A model generated the notes under the pieces. The model had not been told where the DNA came from. It made no database searches and saw only the letters and a list, made by a program, of their open reading frames with translations. A stretch of 64,000 nucleotides of DNA from Urinicoccus massiliensis (lineage in GTDB: Bacteria > Bacillota > Clostridia > Tissierellales > Peptoniphilaceae): NCBI RefSeq assembly GCF_900120405.1, contig NZ_LT635492.1, forward strand, positions 714,093 to 778,092, given 5' to 3'. The translations under genes and the position numbers were made by a program. Positions 21,902 to 40,945 of the stretch are shown here, in pieces (position 1 is the stretch's first letter; every line of letters starts with the position of its first letter).

Positions 21902-22978
21902 ATGTTAAAAAAATCCATCCGTTTTCTTCTAGTCTTAACGGTCTTTGCCCTGGCTGCCTGCCAAAAGGCTCCGGCCAATAATCCAGGAGAAATGGATACC
22001 ACCAGCAAGGAAGTTAAACAAGTTGTCTATACATCCTTTTTCCCCATTTACGATTTAACCCAAAGCCTGGCCGGCCCGGACTTTGACGTTCGGTCCTTTA
22101 TGCCCCTGGAAGCGGAAGCCCACGACTGGGAACCCTCTGCCAAGGACATTAAGGAATTGTCCCAAGCCGACCTTTTAGTTGTCAACGGGGCAGGAATGGA
22201 AGCTTGGCTACCCAAGGTTCAAGAAGCCCTGCCAGACTTGAAGGTTCTTGACCTGAGCCAAGGTTTGGATTTAATTAAGGCAAGTCACCACCATGACGAC
22301 GCTGACGAAGACCATGATCATGACCATGACGATGCTGAAGAAGCCCATGACCATGACCACGACGAGGCTGAAGAAGCCCACCACCACGACGAAGCAGAAG
22401 AAGACCACGACCATGAAGAAGACCACGAAGGCCACCACCATCACCATCATGGTCCCAACGACCCCCACAGCTTTTTATCTTTAAGCAACGCCATCCAATA
22501 TGTGGACAAGATTAACCAGGCCCTGGGAGAATTGAACCCCGACAAGAAGGCTGCTGTTAATGACCGGGCCCAAGCCCTTTCCAAGGACTTCAAGGACCTT
22601 CTTGACCAATACAAGGAAGTCTTTGCCCAAAAGAAAAACAAGACCTTTATCGTTCCCCACCAAGCCTTTGGCTACCTGGCCCGGGACTTTGGTCTGGAAC
22701 AATACCCCCTTCAAGGCCTTACCTCTGTTTCCGAACCAGACTTGAAAACCATCCAAGAAGCCATTGCAACCTGTAAGACACTTGGCATCAAAACAGTCTT
22801 CTACGAATTTGGCGGCCCCTCCAAGGGAGCAGAAGCCATTGCCAAAGAAGCCAAGATTGAAGCTGCCCCCCTGGCTACCATGGAAATGAAGGTGCCAGGA
22901 AAAGACGGCCAAGACCTCCACTACAAGGACTTAATGGAAATGAACCTGAAAAACATTGCTGAAAGCCTAGGCCAATGA
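21902..22978 (+). CDS. znuA: zinc-binding lipoprotein of an ABC importer, His-rich
   Basis: Cluster A-I metal-binding protein, 358 aa. Signal peptide with ALAAC lipobox (Cys 20). The metal ligands are expected at His in EAHDWEPSAKDI (near 77), in GPNDPHSFLSL (near 190), in VPHQAFGYLARDFG (near 255) and an acidic residue in FYEFGG. Between the first two lies a loop of about 60 residues built from His, Asp and Glu (residues about 123-185), typical of zinc rather than manganese proteins and thought to gather zinc. The neighbours znuC and znuB overlap. RBS AAGGAG precedes the ATG. Confidence 0.93.
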   Translation: MLKKSIRFLLVLTVFALAACQKAPANNPGEMDTTSKEVKQVVYTSFFPIYDLTQSLAGPDFDVRSFMPLEAEAHDWEPSAKDIKELSQADLLVVNGAGMEAWLPKVQEALPDLKVLDLSQGLDLIKASHHHDDADEDHDHDHDDAEEAHDHDHDEAEEAHHHDEAEEDHDHEEDHEGHHHHHHGPNDPHSFLSLSNAIQYVDKINQALGELNPDKKAAVNDRAQALSKDFKDLLDQYKEVFAQKKNKTFIVPHQAFGYLARDFGLEQYPLQGLTSVSEPDLKTIQEAIATCKTLGIKTVFYEFGGPSKGAEAIAKEAKIEAAPLATMEMKVPGKDGQDLHYKDLMEMNLKNIAESLGQ

Positions 22979-26382: not shown

Positions 26383-29300
26383 TTACTTTCTATATTGGTC
26401 AAATTGGTTTAATTCGTAGAGCTTGATGCCGTCTTTTAGGGTTTCTTCCTGCAAAATTTCAATCAGGCTCTTGGCCTTGTCTACATTGCTTAAGAGTTCC
26501 ACATCAGATTCAATGGCTGCCCTTCGGATCATAAAGCCATCTCTTTTGGCATCGCCCCCCTTGGTTGGGGTGTTGATGACAAGGTCAAATTTTCCTTCCT
26601 TGACTTCGTCCAAGATGGTGGGGTAGTCTTCCCCAATCTTACGAACATGCTCTGCCTTGATACCCAAGTCTTCCAGGAAGTTCTTGGTGTTTTCTGTTGC
26701 GGCAAAGCTGTAGCCCAGGTCCTTCATAATGAGGATAGAGTCCTTCAACTCTTCCTTGTCCTTGTCTCCCAGGGTTACCAAAACCCGTCTGGGGTGGCTG
26801 GTCAGGTCAATGCCCGATGCGATAAAGCCCTTGGCCAAGGCTTCCTTGCGGCTTAAGCCCACTCCCAGGTCTTCCCCGGTGGACCGCATTTCAGGCCCAA
26901 GACCTGCTTCTACTTGTTGTAACTTGTCTGTTGAAAAGACGGGGATCTTGGCACAGACCAAGTCGCCTTCTGGATAGAGGCCTGTTCCATAGCCCATATC
27001 CTTGAGCTTCTTGCCCAGGATCAATTCCGTAGCTACATCCACCATGGGGATGGTGGTTACCTTGGACAGGTAGGGAACCGTCCGAGAAGATCTTGGGTTG
27101 ACTTCGATGATATAGAGTTGGTGGTCTTTTAAGATGTATTGGATGTTGACCAGGCCCAGGACCCCTAGGCTCAAGGCAATTTTTTTGGTTACTTGGACAA
27201 TTTCTTCTTTTTTATCTTGGGGAATGTGGTCTGTGGGATAGATGGAGATGGAGTCTCCAGAGTGGATTCCGGCCCTTTCCAAGTGCTCCATAATTCCTGG
27301 AACCAAAATGTCCTCTCCGTCACAGAGAGCATCTACTTCGATTTCCATACCGTCAATGTATTGGTCAATGAGGATGGGATTTTTGGGATCTTTTTGGAAA
27401 CCCCGGTCGCAATAGTAGCGAAGTTGAGTTTCCCCGTAGCAAATTTCCATTCCTTGGCCCCCTAGGACATAGGAGGGTCGAACCAGGACAGGATAGCCCA
27501 GGTTCTTGGCTATGCCCACAGCTTCTTCTGTGGTCCAAACCCCGTGGCCCTTGGGACGTTGGATGCCCAATTCTTCCAGCAATTCATCAAAGCGCTCCCG
27601 GTCTTCTGCCCGGTCAATGGCGTCGGGGTCTGTCCCCCAAATGGGGATTTCAGAATTCTTAAAGAAGTCTGCCAGTTTAATGGCTGTTTGGCCACCAAAT
27701 TGCAGGATAACTCCATCGGGCTTTTCCCGGTCGATAACATTTAGGGTATCTTCAATGGTCAGGGGCTCAAAGTAGAGCTTGTCTGCCAGGTCAAAGTCCG
27801 TGGATACAGTTTCCGGATTGTTGTTCATCAAGATTGTTTCATAGCCCAGCTTGTTTAGGGTTTGAACACAGTGGACACAGCAGTAGTCAAATTCAATCCC
27901 TTGGCCAATCCGGATGGGACCAGACCCAATAACCAGGACCTTTTTGCCAGTTTTTTCCAGGGCCTTTTCTTCCGATTCCAGGTCATAGGTGGAGTAGAGA
28001 TAGGGTGAATCCACCTTTAGGGACCCGGCACAGGTGTCCACCCCCTTAAAAGAGGCGGTGATCTTGTAGAGTTTTCTTAATTCATAGATAAACTTGGGCG
28101 ATTCCCCAATAAAGTTCCCAATGGCCACATCGGAAAATCCACGTTTTTTCAAGTCTCTCAGGACATTTTCCGTCAAATCGTCCTTGGTCATTTCCTTGAG
28201 CTTGCTTTCCCTTTGAACAATGTCGGCAATTTCATAGAGGAAGAATTCGTCAATTCCCGTTTCCAGACCTAGTCGTTTAATGGAGTAGCCCCGTCTTAAG
28301 AGTTCAGCCAGGACAAAGAGTCTTTCATCAGAGGGAGATAGGACTTCCTTTTTCAATTCTTGGAGGGACTTTTCAGCTAGACCAGGATGCTCCAGACTGA
28401 ATTTCCCAATTTCCAAGGACCGGAGGCCCTTTAAAAGAGCACTTTGGAAGGAAGACCCAATGGCCATGACTTCCCCTGTGGCCATCATCTTGGTTCCCAG
28501 TTGCCGTTTGGCATTGTAGAACTTGTCAAAGGGCCATTTTGGAATCTTAACAACTACATAGTCAATAACCGGTTCAAAGGCTGCCGAAGTCTTTTTGGTA
28601 ATCCGATTTTCAATTTCGTCTAGGCGGTAGCCCAGGGCAATGTTGGTAGCCACCCGGGCAATGGGGTAGCCTGTGGCCTTGGAGGCCAGGGCCGAAGACC
28701 GGCTAACCCGGGGATTGATTTCAATAACGGCATACTTAGTAGATGTTGGGTGGAGGGCAAATTGTACATTGCAGCCTCCTTCAATGCCTACTGCATCGAT
28801 AATCTTAAAGGCAGACCTTTGTAGGATGCCATATTCTAGAGGACTCAGGGTTTGGGTAGGAGCTACCACAATAGAATCCCCAGTATGGACCCCAACAGGG
28901 TCGATATTTTCCATAGAGCAGACCACAATCTTGTTGCCGGCGTGGTCCCTTATAACTTCAAATTCAATTTCCTTCCAACCGGTAATACACTTTTCAATAA
29001 GGACTTGGTGGACCCGGGACCGGTGGAGACCACCTGTGGCGATTTCCGTCAATTCTTCCTTGTTCTTGGCAATTCCGCCCCCGGTGCCTCCCAGGGTAAA
29101 GGCCGGCCGGACTACTACAGGGTAGCCCAGGTAGTCGGCGTATTCCAGGGCTTCATCCAGACCTGTTACCGTCTTGGATGGAATCAGGGGTTCGTCAATT
29201 TCTTCCATGAGTTCTCGGAAGAGTTCCCGGTCTTCCCCCTTCTTGATGCCGGAAATGGGCGTTCCCAAAACTTTTACATTGTACTTGTCCAAGATTCCCT

Positions 29301-29613
29301 TTTCATAAAGGTCCATACCCAGGTTCAGGCCAGTTTGTCCCCCCATACCGGGAATCAGGTGGTCGGGTCTTTCTTTTTCAATAATCTTTTCCACCACATC
29401 CAGGGTCATGGGCTCAATGTAGATCTTATCAGCCATGCCCCGGTCGGTCATAATGGTGGCGGGGTTGGAGTTAATTAGGACAACTTCGATCCCGTTATCT
29501 TTCAGGGTTTGACAGGCTTGGTTTCCTGAATAGTCAAATTCAGCTCCTTGCCCAATGACAATGGGGCCTGACCCCAAAACCAATACTTTTTTTACGCCTT
29601 CAAATTTGCCCAT
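26383..29613 (-). CDS. carB: carbamoyl-phosphate synthase large subunit
   Basis: 1076 aa, full length. Two homologous ATP-grasp synthetase halves (each opening with a VLGSGPIxIGQGxEFDYxxxxxxxTL motif, residues about 12 and 560) phosphorylate bicarbonate and carbamate; the C-terminal MGS-like allosteric domain ends the chain. The ATG at 29613 has GGAGAG 7 bases upstream, 4 bases after carA. It appears fully intact, in contrast to its glutaminase partner CarA. It supplies carbamoyl phosphate for PyrB. Confidence 0.95.
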
Positions 29614-29617
29614 GTCT

Positions 29618-30655
29618 TCACTCTCCAATTCTTTCATCTAAAACAAAGTTACATTCGCCATGATAGGGGTCTTCTTCGGCTTGGAAGAGGAAGCCCCAGG
29701 CCCGGTAGTCCTTGGCCTTAAAAGCTGCCGTTGTTTGGTCCAGCAGGTTGATAAAGCTAGGCTCAATAGGCTTTTCATCAATTAAACCATACTGGTAGTT
29801 TTGGTGGCTGTGGTAGATTTTTTTGGTCTTTAAATCCATGATGGGTTGGGACCCCTTGTGGCCGGGAAGAAACTTGATTCCGCAGCCCAATGCTCTTGCC
29901 AGCATTTGTGCTCCCAGGCCAATGCCCATAAGGTCAATCTTGCCAAGAATTTGCTCAATGTCTGAAATAATATCTTGGACCATGGTGGGGTTTCCTGGAC
30001 CAGAAGATAGGATTAAGAGGTCGTGCTTGGCATCTAGAATTTTTTCAAAACTTGTTTGGGCCGGATACTGGGTAATGGAACAATCCCTGGCCTTGAGATA
30101 GTCAATCAAGCTCTTTCTTAAGCCAAAGTCCCAAACAGCTACGTCCTTGCCCTTGCCGGGATAGTAAATTTTTTCCTGGCAGGTTACATCAAAGACCCCA
30201 TGGCTTAAGTCCATATCATCCAGGAGGGTTTTTAACTCACTTTCCGTCTTGGGCTTGCGGGTAATAATCCCCCGGAAGGAATGGTGGTCTAAGAGGTAGC
30301 GGGAAAGGGCCCGGGTGTCAATGCCGCAAATTCCCGGAATTTTGTGGTAGTTTAAGTAGTTGTCAATGTTAATTTCATAGCGGAAGTTGTTGGGATGGTC
30401 AATTTTTTCCCGGCAAATGACCCCCTTGAGTTGGATGTCCGGGCTTTGTTCGTCCGTTAGGTTAAAACCATAGGTCCCAATTAAGGGGTAGGTAAAGACC
30501 AGGAGTTGGCCGTAATAGGCCGGGTCTGTAATTAACTCTTGCTGGCCCACCATGGCGGTATTGTAGGTGAGTTCCCCTACAACATCCTTGCCCTTGTAGC
30601 CAAAGGCTGTTCCCTCAAAAAGACTTCCATCTTCTAATTGTAAATATGTTTTCAT
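29618..30655 (-). CDS. carA: carbamoyl-phosphate synthase small subunit, glutaminase site lost
   Basis: 345 aa, usual length. The N-terminal CPSase_sm_chain domain is normal ([33 protein letters not shown]). The C-terminal class I glutamine amidotransferase domain is degenerate at every catalytic point: the nucleophile elbow, normally GICLGHQ, reads GIGLGAQ (Gly246 in place of Cys, Ala249 in place of His), and the HPE motif reads QAE (Gln325 for His). The codon at the nucleophile is GGC, one base from TGC. Everything else in the frame is open and conserved, so this is not a pseudogene. I infer it still binds CarB structurally but cannot hydrolyse glutamine, so the synthase would use free ammonia. 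RBS GAGGGG lies 4 bases before the ATG. Confidence 0.9.
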
Positions 30656-30663
30656 CTTTCCCC

Positions 30664-31563
30664 TCACTTTATACAAGCTATTATTTCCGATATATTTTCT
30701 AAGTGGTTTTCTTGACAATAATCTTCCAGGTCCTGGAGAATTTTAGGTACCAGGAAGGGATCATGGAAGTTCATGGTCCCAATTTGAACAGCAGATGCTC
30801 CCACCATGAGCATGGCCAGAACATCTTCCGCCGAGGCAATTCCTCCCAATCCCACAACGGGAATATCCACCGCCTTGGCCACCTGGTGGACCATCCTCAG
30901 GGCCAGTGGAAAAATACAGGGCCCCGACAGGCCAGCATAAACATTGTCAAAAACAGGCTTGCGATGGGCAATGTCCACTGCCATGCCCTGGACCGTGTTA
31001 ATGAGACTTACAGCAGCTGCCCCGGCCTCTTGGACACCCTGGGCCAGGTCTGCCACCGGGTCCCCGTTGGGAGATAACTTCACCATAACCGGGTGGCGGG
31101 ACAGGTCCACCACCTCCCGGGTAATGGAGGCTGCCGAGTCACACTTGAGACCAAAAAGCAGGCCCCCTTCCTTGACATTGGGACAGGAGATGTTCAATTC
31201 AATGAGGTCAATGTCCAGGTCGTTTAACCTTTCTGCCCCTCTTAAATAATCATCCCGACTGTTTCCACCCAGGTTGACAATGATCCCCGTATCCAGGCTC
31301 CGCATCTCTTGGTATTCTTCCTGGCAAAAATGTTCAATACCTGGGTTTTCCAGGCCAATGGAATTTAAAATCCCCGAAGGCGTTTCCCAAATCCGGATGC
31401 CGGAATTGCCAGCCTTGCCGGCATAGGTCAGCCCCTTGGAAGAAATGGCCCCCACTATGGAGGGGTCATAAAACCTCCGGTATTCTTCCCCGTAGCCATA
31501 GGTCCCTGAAGCCATAATCAGGGGATTTTTTAATTTTAGCTTGCCAATCCTCGTCTCAAGCAT
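30664..31563 (-). CDS. pyrD: dihydroorotate dehydrogenase class 1B, catalytic subunit
   Basis: 299-aa FMN TIM barrel oxidising dihydroorotate to orotate. The catalytic Cys is seen in ELNISCPNVKEGG, and the FMN-binding GLGGIASAEDVLAML segment is typical. Class 1B is shown by the adjacent electron-transfer subunit pyrK. The ATG at 31563 has GAGGAG 7 bases upstream and overlaps the pyrK stop by 8; the frame stays open much further upstream without family similarity. Confidence 0.95.
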   Translation of the reverse strand: MLETRIGKLKLKNPLIMASGTYGYGEEYRRFYDPSIVGAISSKGLTYAGKAGNSGIRIWETPSGILNSIGLENPGIEHFCQEEYQEMRSLDTGIIVNLGGNSRDDYLRGAERLNDLDIDLIELNISCPNVKEGGLLFGLKCDSAASITREVVDLSRHPVMVKLSPNGDPVADLAQGVQEAGAAAVSLINTVQGMAVDIAHRKPVFDNVYAGLSGPCIFPLALRMVHQVAKAVDIPVVGLGGIASAEDVLAMLMVGASAVQIGTMNFHDPFLVPKILQDLEDYCQENHLENISEIIACIK

Positions 31564-32248
31564 GGTCCAACTCCTCTTTTGCAAATACTGGTCCATCCAG
31601 GCAGACCTTCTTACGACCCTCCTTGCCCTGGCAGCTACAGGCCAGACAGGCTCCAAAACCGCAACCCATTCTCTCTTCCAGGGACAATTCCAGGTCCTTG
31701 TCCTCCTGGCGGCAGCGGTCCAAAACTGCATTCATCATGACCCGGGGGCCACAAGTGTAAAATTGGTCATAGGCCTGGAAGTCCACAGCCTCTGTAATGT
31801 AACCCCCCTCTTGGATTTTCAAATCCAGGGGATAGTCCTTTAAGTAGTCCCCAAAGCCCTGGGCATCCCTGGTACCGAAGTAGACCCTGGTAGTTCCCTT
31901 GAGAAAACGACTCAGGTAGATAAAGGGAGCCAGGCCAACCCCACCTGCAATACAGGCCACCTTCTTGTCCGGATAGGGAGTAAAGCCCCGGCCATAGGGC
32001 CCTAGGATCCTCAGGTCCTCTCCCGCCTCCAACTTGGAAAATTCTTCCGTTCCCCCACCTACGACTTCATAGAGGAGGCCCAGCTGGCCCTCATGGTAGT
32101 CGAAAACGCTAATGGGTCGGCCCAGGAGCTTGGCCCCGTCCTTGGGATAGACCATGTAAAACTGGCCGGGCTTGGGAACAGATTTCTCTTCCAACCAAAG
32201 GACATAGGTATGGGGATTGATTTGGTCTTGTCGAATAATTTTAGCCAC
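31556..32248 (-). CDS. pyrK: dihydroorotate dehydrogenase electron-transfer subunit
   Basis: 230 aa. FAD-binding region (GRPISVFD), NAD-binding region (ACIAGGVGLAPFIYL) and a C-terminal 2Fe-2S centre (CGFGACLACSC...C). It passes electrons from PyrD to NAD+. It overlaps pyrI by 8 and pyrD by 8 bases. Confidence 0.95.
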   Translation of the reverse strand: MAKIIRQDQINPHTYVLWLEEKSVPKPGQFYMVYPKDGAKLLGRPISVFDYHEGQLGLLYEVVGGGTEEFSKLEAGEDLRILGPYGRGFTPYPDKKVACIAGGVGLAPFIYLSRFLKGTTRVYFGTRDAQGFGDYLKDYPLDLKIQEGGYITEAVDFQAYDQFYTCGPRVMMNAVLDRCRQEDKDLELSLEERMGCGFGACLACSCQGKEGRKKVCLDGPVFAKEELDHA

Positions 32249-32669
32249 GATGCAACTCCATTACTTGGTCACAATAACAACAGCGGTAGCTTACTGGGTC
32301 CTCCCCTGCCAGGTCAAACATTTCTTCCAGGTCTTGGTGGTTGCTAACACAGGCCGGGTTCTTGCAGGTTAAAACCCCTCGGACATGTTTGGGCAGGCGG
32401 ATTTTTTCCTTGTTGACCACCTGGCCATTTTCAATGACATTCACCGTACCAGAAGGAGCCATAAGCCCCACCAGGTCCATGTTTAAGTCAAAGTCTGTTT
32501 CAATCTTAATCAGGTCCTTTTTTCCCATTTTACTACTGGGAATCCCCGTCATTAAAACCACAACCCCCTGGACATTTTCCAGTTCCAGGCCGTGGTAGAG
32601 CTTGATCCCCTCCCCGGCCTTGATGTGGTCAATAACAACTCCCTTGCGAATCTTCGATACATTAATCAT
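32241..32669 (-). CDS. pyrI: aspartate carbamoyltransferase regulatory subunit
   Basis: 142 aa. N-terminal nucleotide-binding domain and a C-terminal zinc domain with the four Cys (CKNPAC and CCYC types) that docks on PyrB. It implies an E. coli-like heteromeric, CTP/ATP-regulated enzyme. The ATG at 32669 is preferred to the TTG 6 bases upstream; it overlaps the pyrB stop by 8. Confidence 0.93.
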   Translation of the reverse strand: MINVSKIRKGVVIDHIKAGEGIKLYHGLELENVQGVVVLMTGIPSSKMGKKDLIKIETDFDLNMDLVGLMAPSGTVNVIENGQVVNKEKIRLPKHVRGVLTCKNPACVSNHQDLEEMFDLAGEDPVSYRCCYCDQVMELHRG

Positions 32670-33585
32670 TGGCAACCCCCAGCAAGATCATCATCAGCGC
32701 CATTCTTACATACATGCCCAGGTGGGCCTGGTTAAAGTATACCATTCTCGGGTCCGAATCCAGGGACTTTTCAATTTCCAGCACCCTGGGGAGGGGGTGC
32801 ATGACAATCATGTCCTCCTTGGCCAGGGCCATTTTTTCTTGGTCCAGGATATAGAAGTCCTTGAGGCGTTCATACTCTCGCTCAGAGACAAAGCGTTCCT
32901 TTTGGACCCGGGTCATGTAGAGGACATCCAGGTCCCCCATGACCTGGGACAAGTCTTCCACATAGGTCACATGACCCTTTTGGATTTTTTCCTTGACATA
33001 GGAAGGCAGGGCCAGGTCCTCAGGAGCGATGCAGACATAGTCACAACCCCCCAAAATTTCCAGGGCCTCAATGAGAGAGTGGATGGTCCGGCCAAACTTC
33101 AAGTCCCCGCAAAGGCCAATGGTCAACTTCCTATTTAACTTCCCATAGCGGTGGAGGGTGTAGAGGTCAGTCAGGGTTTGGGTGGGGTGCTGGTGGGACC
33201 CGTCACCGGCATTGATAATGGGCGTCTTTGTCAGGACTTGAGCTCCTAAAAAAGCGGCTCCTTCTAAAAAGTGCCGCATAACAATTAAATCCGCATAGCC
33301 TTCAATAATACGCAAGGTATCTGCAAGACTTTCGCCCTTTGCTGTTGATGTATTCCCTTGGTCTGAAAAACCAATAACCCGACCTCCCAGTCGGTTAAAA
33401 GCAGCCTCAAAAGATAGGCGGGTCCGGGTAGACGGCTCAAAAAAAAGACTAGCCAAGACCTTACCTTCACAGGAATGGGAAAACCCCTCCGGCTTTTGTA
33501 AAATAAGATCTGCTAGTCGAAATGCTTCTTGGTATTCAGTTGTAGACCAGTCCGACGGTCTAATAAAATTGGATTGACGAATCAT
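32662..33585 (-). CDS. pyrB: aspartate carbamoyltransferase catalytic subunit
   Basis: 307 aa, making carbamoyl aspartate. Carbamoyl-phosphate site STRTRLSFEAA (about 52-62), AGDGSHQHPTQTLTDL, and MTRVQKER are present. First gene of pyrBIKD-carAB-M42. RBS AGGAGG lies 5 bases before the ATG. The leader is only about 30 nt, so there is no room for a PyrR attenuator. Confidence 0.95.
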   Translation of the reverse strand: MIRQSNFIRPSDWSTTEYQEAFRLADLILQKPEGFSHSCEGKVLASLFFEPSTRTRLSFEAAFNRLGGRVIGFSDQGNTSTAKGESLADTLRIIEGYADLIVMRHFLEGAAFLGAQVLTKTPIINAGDGSHQHPTQTLTDLYTLHRYGKLNRKLTIGLCGDLKFGRTIHSLIEALEILGGCDYVCIAPEDLALPSYVKEKIQKGHVTYVEDLSQVMGDLDVLYMTRVQKERFVSEREYERLKDFYILDQEKMALAKEDMIVMHPLPRVLEIEKSLDSDPRMVYFNQAHLGMYVRMALMMILLGVAND

Positions 33586-33763: not shown

Positions 33764-33945
33764 AAAGAAGCTCTACGGTGTTCGATGGACTTCATCTTAA
33801 TTCAACCGACAAATCAGACACGGGAATCTGTGTTTAGCCGGTAAGGGCAAGCCCCCTTGAGGGGACGTTTAAACCGGTTAGTAAGATACCCACCTTAACA
33901 ACAGGGCGGGTCTGAATTAAATGAAGAAACGGCATTGTGGAGTCT
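33764..33945 (+). ncRNA. ssrS: 6S RNA
   Basis: A non-coding transcript of about 180 nt with its own promoter and terminator and the 6S RNA layout: a closing stem (33771-33780 with 33933-33942, 10 pairs counting G-U), a second stem (33790-33804 with 33913-33926, one bulge), a large central bubble, and an apical region rich in pairing. The TGTTCG on the 5' side and CGGCAT on the 3' side sit where they do in E. coli 6S RNA. 6S RNA binds housekeeping RNA polymerase by imitating an open promoter and represses transcription in stationary phase. End points are estimates. Confidence 0.8.
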
Positions 33946-33951
33946 ACATAG

Positions 33952-40662: not shown

Positions 40663-40945
40663 AAAAAACGTCCTCAGTCTAAAATTAGACCAAGGACGAA
40701 AAATATTCCGCGTTACCACCTTTATTCCTATCGATAAAACGATAGACTCTCAAGCATCCATCAATGCCGGGTATTGATAACGCCTACCAAGGCGACAAGT
40801 CTTACTCTGGTTCAGACCTGCAATAAGAAAAATGATTTTCACCCAACTTCCACTATAAGCTTCCACCAACCGCTTACTCTCTGTAAATATCCATGAGGCT
40901 AGTCTTTTTTTCCAAATTTTTACTATAAAATTTAACTGTGATATT
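40663..40945 (-). promoter_or_regulatory. T-box riboswitch, probably isoleucine
   Basis: Leader of about 280 nt on the minus strand. The T-box sequence GGTGGTAACGCGG is at 40708-40720, Stem I has the AGAGAGTAAGCGG and GGTGGAAG landmarks, and a terminator CGTCCTCAGTCT/AGACCAAGGACG with T7 is at 40663-40698. Pairing GACTAGC with GCAGGTC at the base of Stem I puts ATT (40822-40824, Ile) in the specifier position. Isoleucine fits BrnQ, but the specifier is read by eye. Confidence 0.88.

Follow-up and report, generated by a model that had tools for sequence, protein, structure and literature searches.

A probable ammonia-fed carbamoyl-phosphate synthase with a degenerate glutaminase subunit in the pyrimidine operon of Urinicoccus massiliensis and its relatives

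Described carbamoyl-phosphate synthases and the carAB locus

Glutamine is named as the donor of all bacterial carbamoyl-phosphate synthases (CPSs) in the pertinent passages of both a review (PMC6245113) and a structure paper (PMC4655335). As sections of the review (PMC6245113) describe for Escherichia coli, C269 and H353 of the small subunit, CarA, are essential for glutamine hydrolysis, the small subunit contacts the carboxyphosphate and oligomerisation domains, and the reaction with NH3 requires very high, likely physiologically irrelevant concentrations. The closest described system is vertebrate CPS1, which takes ammonia from outside and keeps an inactive glutaminase-like domain whose nucleophile Cys is replaced, by Ser294 in the human enzyme, according to passages of the structure paper (PMC4655335). 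A sequence-only reading of the DNA analysed here had drawn a parallel to mammalian CPS I, and the comparison is apt in that the same domain is kept with the same Cys replaced. Nevertheless, CPS1 is a single fused chain, mitochondrial, dependent on N-acetylglutamate and devoted to ureagenesis, whereas the locus described below encodes two subunits from two ORFs in a pyrimidine operon, has Gly in place of Cys together with loss of the catalytic His, and has a separate bacterial origin. Among bacteria, parts of a paper (PMC3017870) suggest free ammonia use by carAB of Blochmannia vafer when glutamine is scarce, an idea based on the loss of glutamine synthetase, unlike the dead CarA considered here. 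The engineered E. coli CarA variant C269S (PDB 1c30) likewise lacks the nucleophile in an otherwise folded small subunit, but is a laboratory mutant, whereas the state in question is natural, inherited and recurrent. For CarB without CarA, a parallel is offered by the small CPS of Methanobrevibacter smithii, described in passages of PMC6022934 as a dimer of synthetase domains, although this is a ~41-kDa synthetase dimer and not a full CarB.

Ammonia-dependent CPS is therefore already known in the form of CPS1, and ammonia use has been suggested for CarAB of B. vafer. What appears to be new is the natural and repeated occurrence in bacteria of a two-subunit CPS whose glutaminase is dead, alongside relatives with CarB only; among the titles and abstract openings listed for the open-licence literature, outside which most subscription journals lie, none concerned a dead bacterial CarA or a CarB-only genome. 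We consider it highly probable (roughly 0.86) that carAB of the window, that is, the whole 64,000-nucleotide stretch analysed, encodes a CPS that does not hydrolyse glutamine and that would combine bicarbonate, ATP and free NH3 into carbamoyl phosphate for pyrimidines, with the dead CarA retained as the partner of CarB.

The genes are arranged in the order pyrB-pyrI-pyrK-pyrD-carA-carB (Table 1), the operon context that the sequence-only reading had assigned to carA. For pyrD, the best family match starts at residue 57, so that translation probably begins inside the listed frame. The carB ORF, as listed, shares 20 nt with the end of carA. As previously read, carA is full length and in frame: its translation comprises 345 aa with zero internal stops and begins with an ATG at 30655 that is preceded by GAGGGG.

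Table 1. Coordinates of the features discussed, as positions in the window
Feature	Position	Strand	Remark
carA	29618..30655	-	full-length CPS small subunit; class-I glutaminase domain predicted to be inactive
Gly246 codon, GGC	29918..29920	-	replaces the nucleophile Cys (E. coli C269)
Gln325 codon, CAA	29681..29683	-	replaces the catalytic His (E. coli H353)
carB	26383..29637	-	full-length CPS large subunit; checked active-site and ammonia-gate residues present
pyrD (dihydroorotate dehydrogenase)	30664..31731	-	family match
pyrK (electron transfer subunit)	31556..32248	-	best match 208.6 bits, below the cut-off of 219
pyrI (aspartate carbamoyltransferase regulatory subunit)	32241..32675	-	best match 159.4 bits, below the cut-off of 171
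pyrB (aspartate carbamoyltransferase)	32662..33585	-	sole PF02729 match of the whole genome, presumptively assigned here
6S RNA (RF00013)	33767..33947	+	88.1 bits
T-box leader (RF00230)	40689..40923	-	119.8 bits
Metal-binding lipoprotein-like ORF	21902..22978	+	long His/Asp/Glu-rich stretch

The translation carries the motifs GIGLGAQ (residues 244-250) and FQAE (324-327). When aligned to CarA of E. coli K-12 (locus L107), it has Gly246 at C269 and Gln325 at H353, so that the catalytic Cys and His of a glutamine-hydrolysing CarA are both absent, and Ala and Gln at S47 and G313, respectively; the equivalents of G241, G243, Q273 and E355 (Glu327) are retained, the last of these being a point against the ammonia reading. 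The sequence-only reading had counted Ala249 as a third lost catalytic residue. However, several relatives in which Cys and HPE are intact carry Val, Ile, Leu or Tyr in place of the corresponding His of GICLGHQ (E. coli H272), and hence this position is not catalytic; the informative losses in the alignment are those of Cys and His. Both small-subunit domains (PF00988 and PF00117) are matched, and the protein scores above the cut-off of the NCBIfam model NF009475, but at 258.4 bits it stays below the cut-off of 307.35 for TIGR01368, the glutamine-hydrolysing small subunit. As in CPS1 (parts of PMC4655335), the glutaminase-like domain lacks the catalytic Cys, and is presumably inactive. A congeneric genome (G129) encodes a CarA with 69% identity to that of the window and identical GIGLGAQ and FQAE motifs. 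An assembly or sequencing error was excluded by recurrence of the dead CarA in 18 genomes.

Retention of both subunits

Several lines of evidence indicate that the dead subunit is maintained. We estimated dN/dS by counting, and the values indicate that the dead glutaminase domain is under purifying selection. Between the window and G129, dN/dS is 0.219 for the N-domain, 0.082 for CarB and 0.157 for the glutaminase (GATase) part, the last value being unreliable because the corresponding dS of 1.86 is saturating. In five overlapping pairs of genus g2, the GATase part gave 0.066-0.104, against 0.052-0.226 in three intact pairs; for the pair G145-G146 this part was saturated and yielded no value. 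The structure that best matches an AlphaFold model of the window CarA (pLDDT 79, 14 sequences) is that of E. coli CarA, at TM 0.87 over the query; human CPS1 comes next (~0.83). The window enzyme thus resembles E. coli CarAB in two-subunit architecture, predicted fold and CarB catalytic residues, and differs from it in lacking C269 and H353.

These data bear on the alternative that carA is a decaying pseudogene without a role, with CarB alone being the enzyme. Such a scenario would accord with the 16 relatives that have CarB but no CarA (see below) and with the relaxed conservation of the GATase part, for which mean identity is 0.498 in the clade of the window vs. 0.562 among intact sequences, whereas the N-domain shows no such drop (0.579 vs. 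0.567). Nevertheless, CarA is full length in all 18 family members that have it, the GATase part evolves within the range of the three intact pairs, the modelled fold is that of CarA, and carA immediately precedes carB, in the same orientation, in 20/20 fetched dead-CarA loci as well as in the window. We consider this alternative unlikely, and rejected a pseudogene as such on the grounds of selection and conservation. Rather, under the preferred reading, the dead CarA would serve as a folded partner of CarB: a scaffold, a lid or entry route for NH3, or a means of allosteric coupling. Of these roles, coupling of the CarB halves and NH3 intake are guesses.

The large subunit appears intact. The window CarB matches NF003671 with 1452.5 bits and contains both ATP-grasp halves with their catalytic residues. 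Of 27 active-site positions, 20 are invariant in 21 intact rows, and all 20 are kept in the window CarB and, wherever covered, in the rows of other dead-CarA and of CarB-only genomes. The ammonia gate (C232, A251 and A314) is likewise kept in every dead-CarA and CarB-only CarB, A251 being Cys in 26 of 78 intact rows.

Sources of carbamoyl phosphate in the genome and the family

The genome of the window (G000) is 98.98% complete. A second, intact carA, the discovery of which would have spoken against the sequence-only reading, was not found: PF00988 has one match and TIGR01368 detects no other full-length CarA. Five proteins match PF00117, one of them below the cut-off, and the four that are not CarA keep Cys at the place of the nucleophile (GLCYGMQ, GICLGMQ, AICKGMQ and GICGGYQ); by reading, two of the four would be GuaA and PyrG. 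A general loss of glutamine use in this organism was ruled out by the Cys retained in these four proteins. In addition, a 749-aa frame matches PF00120 with 75.1 bits, which suggests a large glutamine synthetase.

The presence of other amidotransferases that look glutamine-competent is relevant to a second alternative, namely, that the dead CarA still relays glutamine nitrogen, through a docking glutaminase or an unusual hydrolytic residue. In favour of this alternative, the window clade retains parts of the SGPG and GLGAQ pocket stretches. However, none of the four other PF00117 matches is located in the pyr operon, Cys and His are lost together, and the CarB-only relatives manage without CarA altogether. 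Furthermore, G359 and P360 of CarA, invariant in 21/21 intact rows, are Tyr and His in the window, although G359 is kept in 12 of the 14 members of the window clade (P360 in 1). We regard a relay of this kind as very improbable.

A third alternative holds that CarAB no longer makes carbamoyl phosphate, which another enzyme supplies instead. Much of the family does have carbamate kinase (ArcC) and a second carbamoyltransferase, which could provide such a supply. In the genome of the window, however, no ArcC-like match is better than 1.6e-5 and PF02729 has one match, by assignment pyrB, so that ornithine carbamoyltransferase seems to be absent. CarAB is thus the only visible source of carbamoyl phosphate, and pyrimidines its only visible use. 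Given, in addition, that the checked catalytic positions of CarB are kept and that carAB remains in the pyr operon, we attach hardly any probability to this third alternative, and the synthesis of carbamoyl phosphate from free NH3 by CarAB remains the preferred reading.

To place the locus in context, we surveyed 130 genomes of the family. Full-length CarA is encoded in 18 of them, and the equivalent of C269 is Gly in 18/18, compared to Cys in 21/21 intact-type comparators; the check for a lineage-wide loss that the sequence-only reading had named thus comes out in its favour. The equivalent of H353 is lost in 17 of the 18 (Asp in 11, Gln in 4, Tyr in 1 and Lys in 1) and kept in G059. Nor did any of the other 17 family genomes encoding a dead CarA yield a second, intact carA. 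Full-length CarB, for which up to five candidates were scored per genome, is present in 34 family genomes, 18 with and 16 without CarA; in G007, CarB is split into two pieces across two contigs. The CarB-only genomes belong to genus g37 (14 genomes) and genus g3 (2 genomes). Protein search, TIGR01368 and PF00988 at E ≤1 recovered CarA in 0/16 of these (both positive controls were found), and none of the 16 stretches around carB (14 of 15 kb, one of 11 kb and one of 3.3 kb) contains pyrB, pyrI, pyrK, pyrD or carA. The CarB copies of g3 (L101, L102) branch inside the g37 clade (loci L089-L104), which hints at transfer between genera.

The distribution of carbamate kinase in the family is nearly complementary to that of CarB. 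ArcC, called at E < 1e-60, a threshold chosen after the table had been inspected, is present in 2/34 CarB genomes (G022 and G089) vs. 92/96 genomes without CarB (Fisher 1.2e-23, a value inflated by shared ancestry, the genomes being related and the test overstating their independence). The two genomes with both enzymes, like the four with neither (given below), count against the ammonia reading. A single carbamoyltransferase is found in 31/34 CarB genomes vs. 6/96 others, two of the 96 having none. With carbamate kinase rare among CarB genomes, CarB looks like their sole source of carbamoyl phosphate. In our reading, carbamoyl phosphate in the family would come by one of two routes: ArcC or an ornithine carbamoyltransferase on the one hand, and a CarB that cannot be fed by glutamine on the other. 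Four genomes (G030, G056, G073 and G099) have neither CarB nor ArcC; among them G056 (family f1), rated 100% complete, lacks matches to carbamoyltransferase, CarB and carbamate kinase, and is likely a pyrimidine auxotroph.

Recurrent glutaminase loss, changes in CarB and proposed ammonia intake

We extended the survey to 249 genomes of the order, including the 130 of the family. Fragments (G136 and contig 120 of G142) being left out, 39 of the 42 further CarA proteins have Cys and HPE; the three exceptions are G244 (GIGLGNE), G145 (GIALGHQ) and G146 (GISLGHQ), the last being a natural Cys-to-Ser change at the C269 position. In a named collection, 437 relatives were ordered by similarity to the window and 80 loci were kept, which were tallied together with the window, E. 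coli and a reference (83 rows); 64 of the 80 are intact. Of the remaining 16, twelve are kin of the window, including Aedoeadaptatus ivorii, A. coxii, A. coli, A. urinae and A. pacaensis (the genus belonging to Peptoniphilaceae, Tissierellales) and Miniphocaeibacter massiliensis, and most of the 12 duplicate family genomes already counted and are no fresh evidence. The other four lie outside the order and come from metagenome-assembled genomes labelled Fusobacteriaceae (L158), Bacteroidales (L173) and Oscillospiraceae (L175, L179), these labels and single sequences being less certain. The two from Oscillospiraceae display a different style of loss, with Glu or Asp in place of Cys (GIELGHQ with HPE kept; GVDLGNQ with LPE). 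Outside the family, a dead CarA thus occurs in 7 genomes, in each of which the search detected one CarA and no second copy.

The CarA tree (42 rows) requires 4 changes between the dead and intact states, 3 of which are forced by starred branches. Grouping the 21 dead CarA found in the order into one clade, as a single ancestral loss would require, was rejected (p-AU 0.00015), whereas one origin within the family is not rejected by CarA (p-AU 0.118). CarB does reject the union of the window clade with a second clade (G057, G059, G061 and G068; 5.5e-13) and that of all family CarB as one group (1.2e-6), but not that of the window clade with the CarB-only clade (0.131), the CarB tree being the product of a quick search, with groups named after the tree had been seen, and both trees having long branches. 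In the CarB tree, the CarB-only sequences form one clade that adjoins intact-type CarB; because its union with the window clade is not rejected, the CarB-only state may have arisen from a dead-CarA one or independently. Gene order also separates the two dead-CarA clades: the order pyrB-K-D-carA-carB is found in 13 of 14 window-clade loci, the window included, with carAB after pyrKD, whereas in the second clade carAB precedes pyrKD in 4/4. In G089, no pyr gene lies near carAB. Collectively, these patterns point to repeated loss of the CarA glutaminase within the order and outside it. The lineage-wide loss that the sequence-only reading had asked for is found in the family, but the loss has arisen more than once, also beyond the family, with three dead CarA elsewhere in the order and four outside it.

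In CarB, we considered 328 sites with conservation of 95% or more across 78 intact-type sequences, taking residues 1-553 as the CarA-facing (N) half; five sites (36, 258, 262, 321 and 505) were dropped as conserved-site changes, the initial 21-sequence set having been too generous compared to the 78. Across eight lineages (G244, with a partial CarB, was left out), 58 changes fall in the N half and 14 in the C half, compared to 106 and 125 when intact sequences are taken one by one, E. coli excluded (Fisher 1.2e-7); with E. coli and a separate reckoning, the null is 140 to 146. A null drawn from 57 intact clades of at least two rows gives 28 to 28 (p 0.0003), and the excess persists without the window and CarB-only clades (35 to 13, p 0.0005). 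Taken singly, it is significant in the window clade (0.023) and the CarB-only clade (0.0012), and not in the six other lineages. The recurrent changes affect Y261 in 5/9 lineages, L352 in 6/8 covered (mostly conservative) and M528 in 4, with three of the 78 intact CarB also differing at Y261 and likewise three at L352. The window CarB retains Y261, one of the two sites that change most recurrently, which counts against the ammonia reading, and carries D258P, Q262G and R265Q, sites 258 and 262 varying among intact rows as well. R265 of CarB forms part of the ammonia tunnel wall where CarB meets CarA.

The ammonia dependence that the sequence-only reading had proposed is therefore supported, beyond the lost residues, by the CarB-only relatives, the near-exclusion of carbamate kinase and the repeated changes on the CarA-facing side of CarB. 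According to the title of a 1987 paper by Rubino, cited in PMC3017870, E. coli CarB alone makes carbamoyl phosphate from NH3 in vivo. In the window enzyme, NH3 would be the donor and would most likely enter at or near the CarA-CarB interface, passing thereafter through the kept CarB gate to the carboxyphosphate site; an ammonia-rich cytoplasm may have been the reason for the switch. For CPS1, passages of the structure paper (PMC4655335) propose an intake path that runs parallel to the moiety interface and bypasses the dead glutaminase site, and consider that a similar ammonia path may exist in E. coli CPS.

A broader proposition, which we hold to be somewhat favoured by the evidence, is that bacteria repeatedly switched from glutamine to free ammonia: the CarA glutaminase died, the CarB face was remodelled in parallel, at identical places, across separate lineages, ammonia intake or allosteric control passed to the dead subunit, and one lineage came to have CarB alone. 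If so, these bacteria would constitute a natural series from glutamine-fed through dead-subunit to subunit-free CPS that mirrors the evolution of the urea-cycle enzyme, with the genomes serving as independent replicates of the step that produced it. The gradation among them, from loss of Cys with HPE intact, through loss of the triad, to absence of the subunit, would allow the roles of the glutaminase subunit other than ammonia supply to be probed. At the level of sequence, these genomes contradict the glutamine-only view of bacterial CPSs, and annotations or metabolic models in which glutamine is entered as the substrate for these genes would probably be wrong.

Other features of the window were recorded as well. 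The 6S RNA gene adjoins the upstream end of the pyr operon and is encoded on the other strand, and a T-box leader lies further along. The metal-binding lipoprotein-like ORF is followed by ABC transporter-like ORFs, and together they look like a zinc uptake system.
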